Positions 20,235 to 31,715 of a stretch of 64,000 nt of DNA are shown here, one piece after another. The stretch comes from Agromyces sp. H66 (GTDB lineage Bacteria; Actinomycetota; Actinomycetes; Actinomycetales; Microbacteriaceae): the NCBI RefSeq assembly GCF_004959775.1, contig NZ_SJZG01000005.1:124001-188000 (forward strand), given 5' to 3'. A program made the position numbers and the translations under genes. Each line of letters begins with the position of its first letter. Position 1 is the stretch's first letter. The notes under the pieces were generated by a model, which saw only the letters and a list, made by a program, of their open reading frames with translations, was not told the origin of the DNA and searched no databases.

Positions 20235-20302
20235 GTGTTCGTCCCCTTGTCGGCGATGTGATGCCAGCGTATGGGTGGATGCCGCCGCGCGACGCTCGCG
20301 GC

Positions 20303-20324
20303 GCTGATAACCCCTTTCATCGGC
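20303..20324. promoter_or_regulatory. Candidate operator upstream of hsdR
   Basis: GCTGATAA-N6-TCATCGGC, an imperfect palindrome 69 bases upstream of the hsdR start. It matches the perfect palindrome at 28591-28612 in 17 of 22 positions, including the conserved GATAACCC left side and ATCGGC right side. Confidence 0.55.
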
Positions 20325-22380: not shown

Positions 22381-22791
22381 TTACGCGTCGGCGTCGGCAT
22401 CTTCGCGCTTGACGAGTTCGCGGATCACCGGGGCCGGCGCCTTTGTCGGGACAGTGACGTCGGCTTCGGTCAGTGCGAGCACGGAACGCAGGCTCACCCG
22501 CGCGAAGTCGTAGAGCGTCTCCACCGCGTCGGAGATCTCGAGATCGGAGGCCAACTCTTCAACGTCCCACGGCTCGTCGGTGGTCCGCCACAGCAGCGCG
22601 CTCACTTCGACGTCGCCACCACCATTCGCTCCGGCGGCGTGAACGGTCGCGAGCACGACGCGGGCGTCGCGGTCTTCGGTCAGGTCTGGCGCGTAACCGA
22701 CGTACCAGTGCACGTGCGGCTCCTCGGCTCCATCGCGGTGCGCCCGGACGAACGAGACCTGAGGGTCGGTGATTCGAAAGCGGGCGTTCAT
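22381..22791 (-). CDS. SecB-like chaperone of a toxin-antitoxin-chaperone (TAC) system
   Basis: 136 residues with an acidic C-terminus. The order of elements parallels SecB. Alternating beta strands (VVLATVHAAGAN.., DVEVSALLWRT) come first, then an acidic loop (EPWDVEELASDLE), and then a helix TLYDFARVSLRSVLALTEADVTVPTKAP. That helix is comparable to SecB [25 protein letters not shown] and to the mycobacterial SecB-like Rv1957. Such chaperones hold the antitoxin until it folds. The ATG (22791) overlaps the antitoxin stop by ATGA, the expected third position of a TAC operon. Assignment is by pattern; a structure-based comparison would decide. Confidence 0.62.
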   Translation of the reverse strand: MNARFRITDPQVSFVRAHRDGAEEPHVHWYVGYAPDLTEDRDARVVLATVHAAGANGGGDVEVSALLWRTTDEPWDVEELASDLEISDAVETLYDFARVSLRSVLALTEADVTVPTKAPAPVIRELVKREDADADA

Positions 22792-23177
22792 CGGGCAGCC
22801 CGAGTCGGGAGAGCCCAACCGTGCGAGGCTCGCGGGTGAGGCGCCGCAAGATGCTGCTCATCGGAGGGAAATCGCCATTCACTGCGCGCTGTATGAGCCG
22901 GCCGGCCGAGTCCAGACTCGAGGGAGAGCTCCAGCCTTTGTCCCAAGGCGTGCAGGGTGGCGGCCAGTGTGCGCACGGTGATATTGCGTTCACCCGCGAG
23001 GCGTGCGGAGATCTCGCTCTTGCTCACGCCGAGCCGTTCGGCAAGCTCAGACTTCTTCATGCCGCACTCAACAAGGGCCGCGGCGATGAGTTCACTCGCA
23101 TCAACCATCGCAGCCTCCTCCGCGTAGACCGCGTCAAAGTCTGAGTCACCAGTTGGGAACACGGATCCGTTGCTCAT
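22788..23177 (-). CDS. higA: HigA-type antitoxin with C-terminal extension
   Basis: 129 residues. The helix-turn-helix (XRE type) is at about residues 27-75: ASELIAAALVECGMKKSELAERLGVSKSEISARLAGERNITVRTLAATLHALGQRLEL. A tail of about 48 residues follows that ordinary HigA proteins lack, with aromatic residues in EWRF and GW. In TAC systems such a tail is the chaperone-addiction segment bound by the SecB-like partner. Start ATG 23177 overlaps the toxin stop (ATGA) and its stop overlaps the chaperone start, so all three genes are coupled. It probably represses its own promoter upstream of the toxin. Confidence 0.8.
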   Translation of the reverse strand: MSNGSVFPTGDSDFDAVYAEEAAMVDASELIAAALVECGMKKSELAERLGVSKSEISARLAGERNITVRTLAATLHALGQRLELSLESGLGRPAHTARSEWRFPSDEQHLAAPHPRASHGWALPTRAAR

Positions 23178-23551
23178 GAGTGGTCTCCTCGCGCCTCCCA
23201 GAAGATCGCACGCGCCTTCTGGGTCTCCTTCGTTACCTGGTTGTCGTTGGGCTTCGGGCGGCCGTGCGTGACGAACCATCGGCTTCCGACTCTGATGAGG
23301 TAGAGCCGGTACTTGTCCGCCTTCAGTTCGTGAACGGCCGGCTCGCTGCCGTCGTTCAGCCGCCGAATGTGCTCGGGCGACTGGATCTGGTGGCCGTCGC
23401 GGAGCCGCTCGAAGTAGCGCTTGAACCTGGCCTGATACCGCTTGTCGAGCGACTGGATGAACTGCAGAGCATCGCTATCCCCGTTCCCGCGTCTGACGAG
23501 CACGACGACATCGCTGTCTTCAAAGACGCGAATCTCGTGTTGTTCAGTCAA
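23174..23551 (-). CDS. higB: HigB/Gp49-like RelE-superfamily toxin
   Basis: 125 residues resembling phage Gp49/HigB-like toxins (RelE fold), ribosome-dependent mRNA endonucleases. Phrases include DALQFIQSLDKRYQARFKRYFERLRDGHQIQSPEHIRRLNDG, HELKADKYRLYLIRVGSRWFVTHGRPK and a C-terminal helix KETQKARAIFWEAR. The only start in frame is TTG 23551, since TAA lies two codons upstream; there is no good ribosome site, which would keep toxin levels low. The gene order toxin-antitoxin-chaperone matches HigB-HigA-SecB. It is inserted between hsdS (72 bases upstream) and the rest of the R-M island, in a locally AT-richer stretch. Confidence 0.78.
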   Translation of the reverse strand: MTEQHEIRVFEDSDVVVLVRRGNGDSDALQFIQSLDKRYQARFKRYFERLRDGHQIQSPEHIRRLNDGSEPAVHELKADKYRLYLIRVGSRWFVTHGRPKPNDNQVTKETQKARAIFWEARGDHS

Positions 23552-26458: not shown

Positions 26459-28504
26459 CTACTCGGCCGGTGGTTCGGTGAGGGTCAGCGTTCCGGCGGT
26501 CGTTCCCGCCACGATCAGGTGCTCGAGTTGCTCGAGCTGGGCGATCCGCTGCAGCGCCTCGGCGCGAGCGCTGCGGAGGTCGGCCAGGGTGCGCGCGAGC
26601 GGTGCTCGCTGGTCGGTCGCGACGCGGCGTACCCTCCACGAGTGCCACGGGGTCGCGGGTGCGCTTCGGGCGACGTCCATGGCGAGGACGTCGGGCAGCA
26701 GGCCCGCGTCATCGTCGCGGTTGATGCGCAGCACGCGTGCAGGAGCCATCACGACCGATGAGCCGTCATAGTCCACCCACGCGGCGGGTTCGGCACCGGT
26801 CAGGAACACGACGTCACCGGGTTCCGTGAGCCGAGCCGATGGGTACGTCGCGGCGAGGCGAAGTCGGTCGATCCGGCGGCCGCCCGGCGTGCGCTCGCCG
26901 CGCACCTCGCCGGGGCCGATCACGGTGAATCCCGAGCGGTCGTCGGCGGCCAGGTCGCCGATGTCGAGACGCGAGCCTGGCACGTAACGCACGTGGCCCT
27001 CACGCACCAGGTCGGCGAGTGTCGCCGGCGGCACGCGCGCCGGGGAAGCGGAGGGCGCAGCGGCGCGTACGGAGGCCGGCACGGAATCCGCGCCGAGATC
27101 ATCCACGATCTCGTCGAAGCGAGCGGATGTCTGGGCGTCGACATTGGCCCGTTCGGGGGCATGACGCAGCATCCCGCCGGCATCGAGCAGCGAGCCGGAG
27201 CGTGCGAGCACCCTGCTGGTGGGAGTCACGCGCGTGAACGTGAACGAGTGCGCGTGCACCGACTGTCGGTCACCCATGGCCGCGGCGAGATCGCCGACGA
27301 GGTCGGCGCGCACGACCGGCGTGAGCTCGAACGTGCTGAGGTCGGAGAGCATCGTCCAACGATCGGCGATGGCGATGCCCTCGTGCGCCGGTCCGAGCAC
27401 CCAGATCGCCAGGTGCTGGCGCGGCGCCGATGGCAGGAGTCCGGCTGGAAGCCGCACGATCGCTCGAACCCGATCGGTGCGCAGCACTTGCGAGCGGAGA
27501 GCGGCCGCCTGCGGTTGGAGTCCGCCGTCGACGAGCACCGATGACGGCGCGACCACGACCGCGCGCTGCGCGTCATCCATCTGCAGTGCGATCTGGTCGA
27601 CGGCCGACAGGGTCGTCAGGGCATCGAGCGCACCACCATCGGGTGAGGGGTACTGCGCCACGTTCACGACCGGTCCGCTCACCTGGAAGTCGCCGGCGGC
27701 GTCGACGGCGAGTCCGGTTCGCGGAACGCCGTGGGCGAGCAGGCGTCGGCGCAGGAGCCTCGCCGCCGAAGTGTCGCCGTCGGCACTCATCACGACCGGT
27801 TCGGCGACATCGGTCAGCCGGTCGACGACATCGATCAGCCGATCGGCACACGCGCCGGTGGGATCGGCGAAACGCGGGGCCGCGGCATCCGCCAGCGGAT
27901 TCGTCAGGGCGAGCTCGATCGCGATCTCGGCGCACAGCGATGCGGCCTCGGCGGCGAGTTCCGATCTCCCGTCATCGCGACTCGAACGGCGGTGCGCGAC
28001 GAGCGTGTGCTCGAACGCCGGAGCGACCCCGTATGCCCCCTCCACGAGTTGATCGGCGTGCCGCGCCATCCGCTCGAGGCCCGACTCGACACGATCGAGT
28101 TCGCGGAACAACGCCTCGTCGTCGGGATCGGTCTCGTCGGCGAGATCAATCAGGTCGTCGCGTGCGAGCGCCCCGAGTTCAGACCCGTGCGCGGCTCGAA
28201 GGGCGAGCAGGGACGTCATGACGTCGACGTACGAACCCTCGAACGCCTGAGGCCGGGCATGAAGCGGCACCTCGGTGATCGCGTCGGGGTTGTTTCCGTG
28301 CTCGGTGTCGACGAGCCAGCGCGCGACGGCGACGGCATCGAAGAGCTCGACAGCGCCCGTCGTCTCCAGGGCAGCGGGGAACGCACTCGGGCCCGTCGAG
28401 AACCTCTTGCGCCACATCGACACCACCGGGCGCTGAACGCGCGCGAGTCGTGCGACGTCGGCGAGGCCGATGCGAAGGTCGGTGGCTTCTGCGACAGTGG
28501 TCAT
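26459..28504 (-). CDS. HTH plus degenerate N6-methylase plus specificity-like fusion
   Basis: 681 residues from ATG 28504 (GGAGG six bases upstream). An HTH is at about 8-35 (LRIGLADVARLARVQRPVVSMWRKRF). The middle matches actinobacterial stand-alone N-6 DNA methylases, but the SAM motif DPxCGxG is replaced by DPTGACADRL (~214-223). The place of NPPF is taken by AQYPSPDG (~283-290), while the downstream RAIVRLPAGLLPS..HLAIWVL (~347-369) is kept. The C-terminal third resembles half an HsdS: LVREGHVRYVPGSRLDIGDL..., then a coiled coil LADLRSARAEALQRIAQLEQLEHLIV. It therefore probably binds DNA but cannot methylate. It heads the hsdM-hsdS operon. A regulatory or specificity role is inferred. Confidence 0.75.
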   Translation of the reverse strand: MTTVAEATDLRIGLADVARLARVQRPVVSMWRKRFSTGPSAFPAALETTGAVELFDAVAVARWLVDTEHGNNPDAITEVPLHARPQAFEGSYVDVMTSLLALRAAHGSELGALARDDLIDLADETDPDDEALFRELDRVESGLERMARHADQLVEGAYGVAPAFEHTLVAHRRSSRDDGRSELAAEAASLCAEIAIELALTNPLADAAAPRFADPTGACADRLIDVVDRLTDVAEPVVMSADGDTSAARLLRRRLLAHGVPRTGLAVDAAGDFQVSGPVVNVAQYPSPDGGALDALTTLSAVDQIALQMDDAQRAVVVAPSSVLVDGGLQPQAAALRSQVLRTDRVRAIVRLPAGLLPSAPRQHLAIWVLGPAHEGIAIADRWTMLSDLSTFELTPVVRADLVGDLAAAMGDRQSVHAHSFTFTRVTPTSRVLARSGSLLDAGGMLRHAPERANVDAQTSARFDEIVDDLGADSVPASVRAAAPSASPARVPPATLADLVREGHVRYVPGSRLDIGDLAADDRSGFTVIGPGEVRGERTPGGRRIDRLRLAATYPSARLTEPGDVVFLTGAEPAAWVDYDGSSVVMAPARVLRINRDDDAGLLPDVLAMDVARSAPATPWHSWRVRRVATDQRAPLARTLADLRSARAEALQRIAQLEQLEHLIVAGTTAGTLTLTEPPAE

Positions 28505-28590
28505 CGGCAGCCTCCGCTCGTCGATCGGGGCCAGACGGTTGCCCGGCTTACGCAACGGTAGCGAGTCCTCCGCTACTTTCTCAGCGAATC

Positions 28591-28612
28591 GCCGATAACC
28601 CTCCTTATCGGC
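28591..28612. promoter_or_regulatory. Palindromic operator of the R-M operon
   Basis: GCCGATAA-N6-TTATCGGC, perfect 8-base arms, 87 bases upstream of the HTH-methylase-like gene and 75 bases upstream of the divergent DUF3892 gene. A related site lies before hsdR (20303-20324). Likely bound by an HTH protein of the island, perhaps the fusion protein itself. Confidence 0.65.
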
Positions 28613-28686
28613 TGTCTGGCGTTGAGCGGTGCCACTTCCGCTCTACCTTCAACGACGTCCTCAACGCCGAACGAAGGAGCCCGAGC

Positions 28687-28968
28687 ATGCCGTTCATCCG
28701 TCGAGTCAGGGTGCAGTCGCCCGGGCTCCGAAGCGAGCACATCACCACCGTGCAGTACTCCCAGACGATGTCGGGGCCGCTGACGGTCGCCTCGACCGAG
28801 GCGATGGTCCACGCCATCGACGCCGGCACCGTCATCTACAGCCGCCACGACGTCACCGGAGCCCAGGCGCTGGTGATCACGCGCGCCGGCAACAACGGCC
28901 GGCGCCATCTCACGACCGTCGCCAACGGGCGGGAGACCGACAACCTGCTGCAGCTGCCGCGGTTCTGA
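28687..28968 (+). CDS. DUF3892 domain protein
   Basis: A 93-residue single-domain protein ending in ETDNLLQLPRF. The layout (short basic start, VxxVxYS...LTVAS, I-DAGTVIYSRH, GAQALVITR, HLTTVANGRETDNLLQLP) matches DUF3892, a small protein of unknown function common in R-M and mobile neighbourhoods. AAGGAG lies seven bases before the ATG. It is transcribed away from the R-M operon; possible promoter boxes TTGAGC (28622) and TACCTT (28644) sit just past the shared operator, so it may respond to the same regulator. Confidence 0.7.
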   Translation: MPFIRRVRVQSPGLRSEHITTVQYSQTMSGPLTVASTEAMVHAIDAGTVIYSRHDVTGAQALVITRAGNNGRRHLTTVANGRETDNLLQLPRF

Positions 28969-28979
28969 AAGGACCCAGC

Positions 28980-29501
28980 ATGAACGAGGAATCCAATCCA
29001 CAGGTCGGCGCTGAGGCTCAGCCCGTCGAGCGCACCGACATCACCGATCCTGCGGTCCCCGGCCCGCCGCCCGATGCAGGCGCCCCGAGCACGCGGCACC
29101 TCGTCATCGGAGCTGCCGGCGTCGGGATCGGCCTCATCGCCGGCATCCTCATCGGCGCACTCGCAGGCCCGCTGTTCAATGCGGTCACCGCCGCCGTGAG
29201 CCCGAGTCCCATCACCAACGCCGTGGAGACCTGCGACGTCGCCGACAACCCCTGGATCGTCGTGGGCGACGACGGCGACAGCGTGTCGCTGCAGACCGAG
29301 GGCGATGAGGCCAGCGGCGCAGAACTCACCGACGTCGTCTGCGTGCTCGTGGAACTCGACGTGCCCGACAGTGTCATCACTCGCATGGACAGCACCCGCG
29401 CGCTCGATGGGCGCCAGACCGCCGAGTGGGACGACCTCTCGGCGTCGTGGGGCTATCACCCCTCGAACGGCCTCGACGTCGTGATCGAGTTCACCGGCTG
29501 A
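28980..29501 (+). CDS. Single-pass membrane protein, function unknown
   Basis: 173 residues: a Pro/Asp-rich cytoplasmic tail (1-37), one glycine-rich membrane helix (about 40-68, HLVIGAAGVGIGLIAGILIGALAGPLF), and an external domain of about 100 residues. That domain has two cysteines (ETCDVAD, DVVCVLVELD), probably a disulfide. No known family was recognised. It starts 11 bases after the DUF3892 stop with AAAGGA upstream, and is followed by other envelope proteins, suggesting a small cell-surface operon. Confidence 0.6.
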   Translation: MNEESNPQVGAEAQPVERTDITDPAVPGPPPDAGAPSTRHLVIGAAGVGIGLIAGILIGALAGPLFNAVTAAVSPSPITNAVETCDVADNPWIVVGDDGDSVSLQTEGDEASGAELTDVVCVLVELDVPDSVITRMDSTRALDGRQTAEWDDLSASWGYHPSNGLDVVIEFTG

Positions 29502-29557
29502 CCCGGCGCGGCTCGCTCGGACGCACTCCTAACCCAACCAAGAGAAGGAAACCACTC

Positions 29558-30103
29558 ATGAACACTCGCATCAGCATCACCGCCGCCGCCCTCCTGCTCG
29601 CCGGCCTGGCCCTCACCGGGTGTGCGCAGACCGGCGGAGCGACGACCTCGCGCGACGAGCCCGCGGCGGCCGTGGCATCCGACGCACCGGCGCCGGCGCA
29701 GCCCGACGTGACACCGTTCGGGGGCACCTTCACCTACGAGGACGGGGTCGCCCTGACCGTCGCGGCCCCGGCGCCCTACACACCGTCGCCGTACGCGGCC
29801 GGTGCGACGCACCCGAACAACGTGACCATCACGTTCACGGTCGTCAACGGCAGCGACGCGACCCTCGAACTGCTCTCGATGCCCGAGGTCACCTCGGGAG
29901 GAGTGAAGGGCGAGTCGATCACCGACCTGTCGAATGACACCGTGGCCCTCGAGCCCTTCGGCGGCAACGCCGACGTGCTCCCCGGGCAGTCCTTCTCGTG
30001 GACCATGGCGTACTCGCTGGCGGATGCCGCGGACGTGACCGTGTCCATCGCGCCGACGCCGTTCACGTACGACGCGGCGATCTTCTCGACGTTGGCCGGC
30101 TGA
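29558..30103 (+). CDS. Lipoprotein with DUF4352-like beta domain
   Basis: 181 residues. A clear lipoprotein signal (MNTRISITAAALLLAGLALTGC, Cys22) leads to an Ala/Pro linker. The beta-rich domain has GGTFTYEDGVALTVAAPAPYTPS... NNVTITFTVVNGSDATLELLSMPEV ... LPGQSFSWTMAYSLADAADVTVSI, the pattern of DUF4352/telokin-like extracellular domains that follow actinobacterial lipoprotein signals. AGAGAAGGAAACC precedes the ATG. Its stop overlaps the next gene (TGATG). Confidence 0.68.
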   Translation: MNTRISITAAALLLAGLALTGCAQTGGATTSRDEPAAAVASDAPAPAQPDVTPFGGTFTYEDGVALTVAAPAPYTPSPYAAGATHPNNVTITFTVVNGSDATLELLSMPEVTSGGVKGESITDLSNDTVALEPFGGNADVLPGQSFSWTMAYSLADAADVTVSIAPTPFTYDAAIFSTLAG

Positions 30104-30690
30104 TGTCAGGGGAAGCCACGGTCGGCCAGGAGGTCCCACCTCGCCGGAAGCGCGCCTGGCCCCGCCTGCTGCTGCCGCTGATTGCTGCGAGCCTGGTCGC
30201 GGCCGCTGCGCTGGCGGCCCTGGTGACGATCAGCATCACGTGGACGAACGAAACCGCCGAACTCAGCGACTCGCTCGAACGGGAGCAGTCACGAGCTGAG
30301 AGCCTGAACGGACAGCTCACGTCCTATAAGGAGCGCGAGCAGGAGCTCGTCGACCGGGAGGTCGCTGTCGAGGCCCGCGAGGTCGACGCTGACGACCGAG
30401 AGGTCGAGCTCGAACGTCGTGAGGCCGCCGTCTCGAAGGTCGAGCAGCAGGTCGCCGCGACGACGCTCAAGGACGGGCACGTCTACACGGTGGGTTCGAC
30501 GATGGAGGCCGGCACATATCAGGCGAATCCAACGGGGGGCAGTTGCTACTGGGTGATCTACACCTCCGGCACGAACTACTCCGACATCGTGGAGAACGAT
30601 TACGGCACCATGGGCAGCATCACCGTCACTGTGTCAGCCGGGCAGGACTTCAGGTCCAGCAAGTGCGGCGACTGGACGAAGGTGGGTTGA
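30103..30690 (+). CDS. Membrane-anchored coiled-coil protein with C-terminal beta domain
   Basis: 195 residues. A basic start is followed by a membrane helix (about 21-46) and a charged coiled coil with many Glu/Arg repeats (about 50-118, DREVAVEAREVDADDREVELERREAAV). The C-terminal domain begins DGHVYTVGSTMEAGTYQANPTGGSCYWVIY and ends FRSSKCGDWTKVG; this DGxYxVGxDIxPGTYxxxxxxxCYW pattern is common in exported actinobacterial proteins. Start and upstream stop share TGATG, so it is coupled to the lipoprotein gene. Probably spans the wall and presents the beta domain outside. Confidence 0.68.
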   Translation: MSGEATVGQEVPPRRKRAWPRLLLPLIAASLVAAAALAALVTISITWTNETAELSDSLEREQSRAESLNGQLTSYKEREQELVDREVAVEAREVDADDREVELERREAAVSKVEQQVAATTLKDGHVYTVGSTMEAGTYQANPTGGSCYWVIYTSGTNYSDIVENDYGTMGSITVTVSAGQDFRSSKCGDWTKVG

Positions 30691-30782: not shown

Positions 30783-31715
30783 TCAACCCGCGGCCGAGGC
30801 CGGCACGCCCTCCTGGAACTCGACGCCCGCGACATCCTTGAACCGCGCTCGCATGACCTCGATCGCCTCGGCGTTCTTCTCGACGAGCACGAAGCGGCGG
30901 CCGAGCGTCGCCGCCACCGCGCCCGTCGTGCCCGAGCCGGCGAAGAAGTCGAGCACCCAGTCGCCCTCGCGCGTCGACGCCTGCACGATGCGCCGCAGGA
31001 TCCCCTCGGGCTTCTGCGTCGGGTACCCCGTCTTCTCGCGGCCCGTCGGCGACACGATCGTGTGCCACCACACGTCGGTCGGCAGCTTGCCGAGCTCCGC
31101 CTTCTCGGGCGTCACGAGCCCGGGCGCCATGTACGGCTCGCGGTCGACGGCGGACGAGTCGAACCAGTAGCGGGCCGGGTCCTTCACGTACACGAGGATC
31201 GTGTCGTGCTTCGTCGGCCACTTGCGCTTCGCCTTGGCGCCGTAGTCGTACGCCCACACGATCTCGTTGAGGAAGCACTCCCGCCCGAACAGCGCGTCGA
31301 GCAGCACCTTCGCGTAGTGCGCCTCGCGATAGTCGAGGTGCAGGTACAGCGTGCCGTCGTCGGCGAGCACGCGCCACGCCTCGGTGAGCCGCGGCTCGAG
31401 GAACGCCCAGTAGTCCTCGAACCGGTCGTCGTAGCGCAGCAGGTCGCCGCGGATGCGCTCGTACTGCTTGCCGGCGAACCCGGTGATGGTTCCGGATGAC
31501 GCGGGGCGCGGGGCATCCGTCGCCTGCTCGTCGCCCGAGCCCTCGGCGAGCGCGGGCGCGACGACCCGCACGTGACGCGTGGCCCGCCGCGCCTGCATGC
31601 GCCCCGTGTTGAACGGCGGATCCAGGTACACGAGCGTGAAGCGCCCGTCGGGCAGGGTCGGCAGCACGTCGAGGTTGTCCGCATGGATGATGCGGTCGGG
31701 TTCGTCGGATGCCAC
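30783..31715 (-). CDS. Orphan site-specific DNA methyltransferase (N6-A/N4-C, beta-type order)
   Basis: 310 residues with the PF01555 layout. The catalytic DPPF is at 32-35 (VYLDPPFNTGR), TQKPEGILRRIVQAST at about 233-248, and the SAM-binding FAGSGTT at 258-264. The catalytic motif therefore precedes the SAM motif, typical of beta-class enzymes. An insertion of about 30 residues after the catalytic motif contains a low-complexity acidic stretch. No restriction enzyme or specificity subunit accompanies it, so it is probably an orphan methylase protecting DNA or marking it for regulation. Divergent from the flavodoxin gene and convergent with the envelope cluster. Confidence 0.9.
   Translation of the reverse strand: MASDEPDRIIHADNLDVLPTLPDGRFTLVYLDPPFNTGRMQARRATRHVRVVAPALAEGSGDEQATDAPRPASSGTITGFAGKQYERIRGDLLRYDDRFEDYWAFLEPRLTEAWRVLADDGTLYLHLDYREAHYAKVLLDALFGRECFLNEIVWAYDYGAKAKRKWPTKHDTILVYVKDPARYWFDSSAVDREPYMAPGLVTPEKAELGKLPTDVWWHTIVSPTGREKTGYPTQKPEGILRRIVQASTREGDWVLDFFAGSGTTGAVAATLGRRFVLVEKNAEAIEVMRARFKDVAGVEFQEGVPASAAG

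Follow-up and report, generated by a model that had tools for sequence, protein, structure and literature searches.

A catalytically dead methyltransferase as the candidate activator of an actinobacterial type I restriction-modification locus

The type I restriction-modification (R-M) locus of Agromyces sp. H66 is headed by a gene whose product resembles an N6-adenine DNA methyltransferase (MTase) fused to an N-terminal helix-turn-helix (HTH) and an HsdS-like target recognition domain (TRD), and which has lost its catalytic motifs. We call this pseudo-methyltransferase PM and describe it within a stretch of 64,000 nucleotides (contig NZ_SJZG01000005.1, positions 124,001 to 188,000; hereafter the window) together with its relatives in other actinobacteria. 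From comparative sequence analysis, we consider it likely that PM, catalytically dead, serves its own R-M locus as a dedicated transcription activator that also regulates itself. We strongly infer that PM binds a palindromic operator in front of its gene, because site and gene recur together and the protein has an HTH; that it activates rather than represses is held with less certainty.

The operator in front of PM

An inverted repeat was first spotted by eye in the upstream sequences of 15 loci, and was scored as YGATAA-N6-TTATCR at most 420 bp upstream of PM. It is present in all 40 loci of the operator set (33 exact, six with one mismatch and one with two), and the 25 loci outside the discovery set, one of them a duplicate (L031), show 20 exact, four one-mismatch and one two-mismatch sites, while only 1.05% of shuffled upstream regions contain a site with two mismatches or fewer. 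Six loci from the genus of G528, scored later with the consensus already fixed, all have the exact operator with a −10 hexamer at 32–33 bp. Overall, 45 of 45 distinct loci carry the operator (38 exact, six with one mismatch, one with two). In the window, this site (O1) sits within a perfect 22-bp inverted repeat, GCCGATAA-N6-TTATCGGC.

The site also follows the gene across whole genomes. The 33 PM genomes contain 32 exact operators spread over 27 genomes, and 28 of these stand directly before PM (G846 has two PM copies and two operator sites); the remaining six genomes have imperfect sites. The four exact sites located elsewhere belong to G863 (two), G760 and G869 (one each). A set of 31 PM-less genomes, chosen by hand among the listed non-matches to cover the same genus or family and the 11 genomes whose HsdM is distant, contains four exact sites in total. 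Around the seven exact sites not before PM (the one in G869 left out), TAnnnT at 29–36 bp was found in 0 of 14 cases, counting either direction. Nothing better than three mismatches was found before six PM-less hsdM loci (L083–L088, among the 11 distant-HsdM genomes) or before the 30 loci of orphan HTH-MTases described below, and the reversed operator pattern gives a single match in the 33 PM genomes. A chance palindrome was rejected on the strength of the shuffles, the PM-less genomes, the off-locus sites without a −10 and the reversed pattern. A terminator or RNA element was likewise rejected: a scan of positions 28300–29000 gave no Rfam match at the gathering score, the spacing to the −10 is fixed, and 14 of 39 loci show it on both sides. 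That HsdS or HsdM reads the operator was set aside by argument, as HsdS diverges between loci and the site is constant, and a host regulator is unlikely because exact sites go with PM.

The site in G869 (L095, G869:C89:1272–1289) is exact, has a −10 at 32 bp and stands before a coiled-coil 'SCYW' accessory gene on another contig than PM; this gene may be a part of the regulon that lies outside the hsd locus.

Promoter geometry and the genes facing the operator

A TAnnnT −10 hexamer lies 31–34 bp after the operator in 41 of 45 loci. In the 39-locus set, 35 TAnnnT matches fall on offsets 31–34 and two on the other 62 offsets. An A at 12 bp past the −10 start (24 of 41 promoters), which in leaderless loci is the A of the ATG, fits the expected transcription start; the start codon is within 8 bp of the −10 in eight of the 41, i.e. 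the transcripts would be leaderless (one start codon in this set was mis-chosen, at distance −50). No −35 element was detected, the best match to TTGACA averaging 2.49 of 6 positions versus 2.23 at random positions. The operator centre would be about 53 bp upstream of the inferred transcription start, just upstream of the −35 position. An upstream operator combined with no detectable −35 is the layout of an activator-dependent promoter, and it is because of this geometry that activation is favoured over repression.

A further copy of the site, with its −10 at 32–33 bp, precedes hsdR in the window (O2), L011 and L012. The six loci in which hsdR comes straight after hsdS (L014–L016, L055–L057) have no hsdR site, as expected for a single operon. 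On the divergent side of the operator, a mirrored TAnnnT occurs at 32–33 bp in 14 of 39 loci, including the window (28644); there it is also seen six times at 3–10 bp, the remaining offsets as far as 65 bp being empty. Control would therefore extend beyond R-M in about a third of loci. The divergent genes differ among loci and include DUF3892, lipoprotein-like, coiled-coil membrane and TM2-like proteins, among others (names other than DUF3892 were given by eye or taken from plasmid annotation). In the window, a four-gene divergent cluster (28687–30690, plus strand) faces the mirrored −10 at O1, and other gene types occupy this place elsewhere; the divergent genes are possibly swappable accessory immune genes.

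A methyltransferase scaffold without catalytic motifs

The preliminary description of this gene had proposed an HTH-methylase-specificity fusion with both catalytic signatures lost, which is borne out by the comparison with its relatives. The winged HTH (residues 10–72) is followed by a helical region (75–205), an MTase-like region (206–447), the HsdS-like TRD (about 490–625) and a coiled coil (about 630–669), and structural matching indicates that an HsdM-like fold is kept along with an HsdS-like C-terminus. In all 45 aligned relatives the catalytic NPPY (motif IV) and most of the following loop are gone, and the S-adenosylmethionine (SAM) motif I is degenerate in 41, the window protein (DPTGACADRL) among them. 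DPxxGxG is retained in L034, L036, L037 and L040; close to where motif IV would be, L035 has SPPW, with the loop absent. PM is accordingly predicted from its motifs to be a catalytically dead N6-adenine methyltransferase scaffold.

Neither Pfam nor NCBIfam assigned PM to a family. Pfam N6_Mtase (PF02384) did not reach its gathering cut-off, the sole Pfam listing at E 1 was CLZ (E 0.038, below its cut-off), and PADLOC gave weak MTase_I matches only (best E 0.004). The best Foldseek matches of the HTH were of the MerR/BldC type (BldC, gpNu1 and CarA, with CarH, SoxR and RacA below them), all of them weak (best E 0.09), and the Pfam scan found no Xre/HTH_3 match. PM is under purifying selection, with a ratio of nonsynonymous to synonymous substitution rates (dN/dS) of 0.196 on which pseudogene decay was rejected (one near-full-length match, in G869, has an internal stop), and HsdS diverges fast (dN/dS 0.44). 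Mean pairwise identity, computed on 40 sequences (the motif counts being on 45), is highest for the HTH (0.49), followed by the TRD (0.40) and the MTase part (0.26–0.38); the TRD stretch GDVVF...PARVLRI is among the most conserved of the protein.

A constant member of one type I clade

The intact hsdM and hsdS reported directly after the gene were confirmed, HsdM by its motifs (DPACGSG and NPPF) and both genes, together with hsdR, by Pfam, NCBIfam and PADLOC calls, which make the type I R-M locus complete. PM homologues mostly away from hsdMSR loci had been named as a refuting condition; instead, hsdM is downstream on the same strand in all 43 loci reaching far enough, and within 100 bp in 40 of them (L021 and L045 end inside PM, before hsdM, and are excluded from this count). 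HsdM of at least 60% identity is present in 24 of 297 genomes of the order, all 24 with PM, and none of the 11 genomes with distant HsdM only (51–56% identity, E ≤1e-100) has a near-full-length PM; four first-look candidates were scored per genome in this comparison, so a miss is possible. The hsdM linkage and the co-occurrence with this HsdM clade make PM an invariable fourth component of a single type I R-M clade. This strict co-occurrence also leaves room for a second, physical role of PM with HsdM/HsdS.

PM is sparsely but widely distributed. Its nearest named relative, from A. bauzanensis, is 93% identical. PM was found in nine of 199 genomes of the family and, with a single-protein query, in three of 396 genomes of a phylum-wide draw (own genome included in both). 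A profile search of the order recovered near-full-length PM in 25 of 297 genomes (the own genome among them; one copy is divided between two contigs and another has the internal stop) and any match in 33, the remaining eight being short. In the Streptomyces-like genus of G528, seven of 101 genomes have PM and three more have C-terminal matches only. Five plasmid records carry PM, annotated as 'hypothetical protein' in all five, and four of the plasmids are predicted to be conjugative. PM, hsdM, hsdS and hsdR are consecutive in all three plasmid records inspected for gene order (matches H3 and H4 fell outside this inspection; in H3, PM spans two annotated genes). L031, L024–L026 and L183 duplicate counted loci, L031 still being inside the 40-locus operator set. 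A match in an unannotated phage record from human faeces (MT835479) has the PM-hsdM-hsdS-hsdR set and, about 90 bp before it, a one-mismatch site; the record seems to be a bacterial contig and not a phage, and was excluded from the 45 loci. Among viral contigs scanned with the PM alignment, 22 stretches matched a pattern and none was a PM relative.

Some relatives depart from the common arrangement. In L022 and L032 (G502, G779), PM and hsdM are about 500–800 bp apart, unlike at other loci, likely with an inserted gene between them. Rhodococcus yunnanensis L013 (13693–17500) has PM-hsdM-hsdS followed by a phospholipase-D-like gene (by eye), with no hsdR match in the stretch covered. In L050 (1233–1671, minus strand), a PM-like HTH fragment adjoins the HsdR C-terminus, as though the intervening operon had been deleted.

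Proposed mechanism and alternative explanations

The most probable course of events is that a PM dimer would bind YGATAA-N6-TTATCR, most likely via the winged HTH, possibly helped or replaced by the HsdS-like TRD. Bound around position −53 relative to the transcription start, it would recruit RNA polymerase and switch on its own gene with hsdM-hsdS, hsdR where separately sited (window 20305), and in some genomes the divergent accessory genes. Positive feedback of this kind would delay full expression on entry into a new host, an effect that C proteins have in type II systems. Dimerisation and extra DNA contact may be the role of the MTase-like and TRD parts, or these parts may sense SAM, methylation state or free HsdM/HsdS, which is speculation.

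Several observations weigh against this activator model. The consensus was widened to Y and R at its ends once CGATAA...TTATCG variants had turned up. In the 4.23-Mb genome of the strain itself, TGATAAN6TTATC with at most one mismatch has three matches at two places, and the reversed pattern also has three; the window contains three two-mismatch matches against a shuffled mean of 1.81. The number of near-matches is not unusual in this genome; their positions are, the two places being before PM and before hsdR, and O2 rests on position, spacing and recurrence, not on rarity. The TAnnnT hexamer is absent at the expected spacing in four of 45 promoters (L012, L034, L036, L040). Because L011 and the window are closely related, the hsdR site is seen in two independent lineages only, and of seven loci with hsdR 2.4–6.8 kb from hsdM, three are sited (the window, L011, L012) and four (L017–L020, 2.4–4.8 kb) are not. 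Another protein could read the operator, PM being named for its recurrence with the site and for its HTH, and covariation between operator variants and PM residues favoured neither HTH nor TRD (45 sequences; likely phylogenetic noise). The operator is, finally, compatible with an autoregulator of either sign.

Which part of PM would read the operator is the question on which the first alternative turns, and it overlaps with the activator model. The same regulator might use a pair of TRDs instead of the HTH, with GATAA-N6-TTATC as a bipartite type I-like target, which we regard as a serious though doubtful option. A bipartite palindrome is the form expected for a dimer of single-TRD fusions of methyltransferase and specificity parts (M-S fusions), the GDVVF...PARVLRI stretch is highly conserved, and orphan MTases have the HTH without such an operator. 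The HTH is nevertheless better conserved than the TRD, and in M.SsoII and M.Ecl18kI the regulatory site is bound by the N-terminal region and not by the MTase domain (PMC3978073). Carried further, PM would be a disarmed modification enzyme turned activator, parked on a bipartite palindrome via paired TRDs with the HTH touching polymerase or flanks, commanding a small immune regulon (R-M plus swappable divergent genes) and perhaps sensing methylation or SAM through its empty active site. We think this fuller picture unlikely; if true, PM on paired TRDs would be a natural counterpart of dCas9-type activation.

Turning from the reader to the sign of the control, PM might sit on the operator as an autorepressor in the manner of RptR or HsdC, keeping restriction low until needed. 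Both described type I hsd regulators that we found, RptR and HsdC, are repressors (PMC12255303, PMC5282649, PMC12707154). The PM operator, in contrast, is clear of the −10, at a fixed distance upstream of the −35 position and with no detectable −35, and it resembles neither the 6-bp palindromes of RptR, which overlap the −10, nor the direct repeats of HsdC; autorepression is therefore rather improbable, and activation remains the preferred reading.

It is harder still to see PM as a structural subunit, i.e. an inactive M partner that changes specificity or controls HsdR, with the operator belonging to another regulator. Its presence in every genome with a close HsdM and in none of those with a distant HsdM only would suit such a role, as would the HsdM-like fold with an HsdS-like C-terminus, and systems with two M subunits are known (PacII M1M2S, from structure entry titles). 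The placement of 28 of 32 exact sites directly before PM, versus four sites in 31 PM-less genomes, ties the operator to PM itself. PM does not track target specificity, because its TRD is conserved at least as well as its MTase part while HsdS diverges fast, and HsdS is full-length (367–404 aa) in the five loci whose length was seen (the window, L013, L055–L057). We consider this explanation very unlikely. To read PM as an enzyme that still methylates DNA with non-canonical motifs, or that at least binds SAM, is barely credible in view of the universal loss of NPPY and its loop and of the unconserved motif I in 41 of 45 relatives, window included, despite DPxxGxG in four relatives, SPPW in L035 (loop absent) and the kept HsdM-like fold.

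The preliminary description had listed a regulator (C-protein analogue), a decoy and an alternative specificity partner. The regulator is strongly supported by an operator that is at fixed spacing to the −10, tied to PM and copied at hsdR, and nothing was found specifically in favour of the other two. The HTH alone is no evidence of regulation, because the orphan N6-MTase family has it too; the operator is what points to it.

Locus layout

The features of the window are given in Table 1. The minus-strand order is PM, hsdM, hsdS, a Gp49/HigB-like toxin gene, an HTH antitoxin-like gene, two unknown genes and hsdR, with a PM-hsdM gap of 43 bp and an hsdM/hsdS overlap of 4 bp. The toxin-antitoxin-like pair separates hsdS from hsdR, and its position there may be the reason for the separate hsdR operator in the window. 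A second, intact N6_N4 DNA methylase gene (30783–31715, minus strand, E 1.4e-45) is about 2.3 kb beyond PM.

Table 1. Genes, operators and promoter elements of the PM locus (window coordinates).
Feature	Position	Strand	Remarks
Pseudo-methyltransferase regulator gene (PM), candidate, 681 aa	26459..28504	-	directly upstream of intact hsdM and hsdS
hsdM, 541 aa	24790..26415	-	motifs intact: DPACGSG, NPPF
hsdS, 389 aa	23624..24793	-	
hsdR, 1061 aa	17049..20234	-	open frame from 20576; start 20234 set by homologues
Gp49/HigB-like toxin gene	23174-23551	-	Pfam Gp49 below cut-off
HTH antitoxin-like gene	22788-23279	-	within 22788..23551, between hsdS and hsdR
Operator O1, CGATAACCCTCCTTATCG	28593..28610	.	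between PM and divergent accessory genes
−10-like hexamer TACCGT, PM-hsdM-hsdS promoter	28555..28560	-	32 bp after O1
−10-like hexamer TACCTT, divergent side	28644..28649	+	33 bp from O1
Operator O2 upstream of hsdR, TGATAACCCCTTTCATCG on + strand	20305..20322	.	1 mismatch
−10-like hexamer TACGCT of hsdR	20266..20271	-	33 bp after O2
Divergent accessory gene, DUF3892	28687..28968	+	E 7e-10
Divergent accessory gene, no Pfam family	28980..29501	+	membrane-anchored by eye
Divergent accessory gene, no Pfam family	29558..30103	+	lipoprotein-like by eye
Divergent accessory gene, membrane coiled coil	30103..30690	+	C-terminal 'GTYxx...SCYW' stretch by eye; Pfam only below cut-off

Origin from orphan methyltransferases

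Actinobacteria also contain orphan N6-MTases with a similar N-terminal HTH, such as P0002/L053, which has DPACGTG and NPPY, and 26 of 61 genomes in the genus of G528 have relatives of this orphan. PM and the orphan family are homologous nearly end to end (hhalign probability 99.7, E 3.9e-25, 19% identity, columns 1–684 of 698) and have the same domain order of HTH, helical region, MTase and C-terminal part. The HTH is probably ancestral because it is common to PM and the orphan MTases, and for the same reason the idea of an HTH newly added as a regulator domain was rejected. What appears specific to PM is the loss of the catalytic motif, the place in the hsd operon and the operator.

In the orphan set (L153–L182, n=30; L157 is a fragment only, and L169 and L181 have no HTH by pattern), NPPY/F is kept by pattern in 12, and others examined have HPPF. 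A Streptomyces-like group (L163, L165, L166, L168, L175) has HPPF in place of NPPF together with a motif I of the DPACGTG/DPASGTG type, and is possibly another class of inactive or altered MTases. L190–L192 are HTH-MTase-like proteins with a C-terminal part matching the PM profile (E about 1e-24 to 1e-26), SPPY or DPPY, and no operator in front; they are possible intermediates between the orphans and PM.

Significance and comparison with known systems

A 2025 review finds 'surprisingly little information' on the transcription control of type I systems (PMC12707154). Both type I locus regulators that we found described are small repressors, and PM is an uncharacterised candidate regulator across many actinobacterial genera, with a precisely defined operator and an origin in a DNA-modifying enzyme. 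If the activator model is true, PM would be a clear-cut example of a transcription factor that arose from such an enzyme. Its control could explain the establishment of such loci in new hosts, some of them on predicted conjugative plasmids, and divergent accessory genes, by their place at the operator, may belong to the same immune programme. A possible parallel is the mitochondrial transcription factor mtTFB, which is related to rRNA methyltransferases. In the open-access literature searched, no description of a dead-MTase regulator or of the PM operator was found among the matches listed (subscription papers and preprints being outside this scope), and the operator YGATAA-N6-TTATCR is new here.

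The orphan HTH-N6-MTase-TRD proteins are like PM in domain order, and unlike PM they keep NPPY/F in part and have no operator. To our knowledge, no N-terminal HTH exists in the M-S fused MTase of Vibrio vulnificus YJ016 (7eew), M.BseCI or CamA, which combine an MTase with a recognition domain and are among the best whole-chain matches to PM; they were solved as DNA methyltransferases with cofactor or DNA, according to their entry titles, unlike the dead PM.

Regulatory MTases, M.EcoRII among them, are a parallel in function. M.SsoII and M.Ecl18kI use an N-terminal DNA-binding extension on a palindromic operator at their own R-M promoters to control the M and R genes (PMC3978073, PMC12707154). 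PM appears to share with this type an N-terminal HTH on an MTase scaffold and an operator of its own. M.SsoII is part of a type II system, is active as a C5 MTase and represses its own gene, whereas PM has an N6-type scaffold without the catalytic motif, belongs to a type I locus beside an intact HsdM and has an activator-type promoter geometry.

The genes for RptR and HsdC, like that for PM, come first in a type I hsd locus, and both proteins have sites conserved across genomes; they differ in being repressors with other folds, their sites being TAGCTA repeats and (GTGTTAN5)2 direct repeats, respectively (PMC12255303, PMC5282649). HsdC apparently represses its operon (PMC12707154), and the hosts of the two regulators are Gammaproteobacteria and Mollicutes (PMC12255303, PMC5282649, PMC12707154).

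C proteins have an autoregulatory operator, coordinate the promoters of their R-M locus and delay establishment (PMC12707154). The candidate operators in front of PM and of further transcription units in the locus suggest a similar arrangement. C proteins are small Xre-family HTH dimers (PMC3978073), in contrast to the 681 aa of PM with its putatively MerR/BldC-like HTH, dead MTase and TRD. PM is best read as a C-protein analogue of unrelated origin, which would function like a C protein or a regulatory MTase while failing a defining feature of each.

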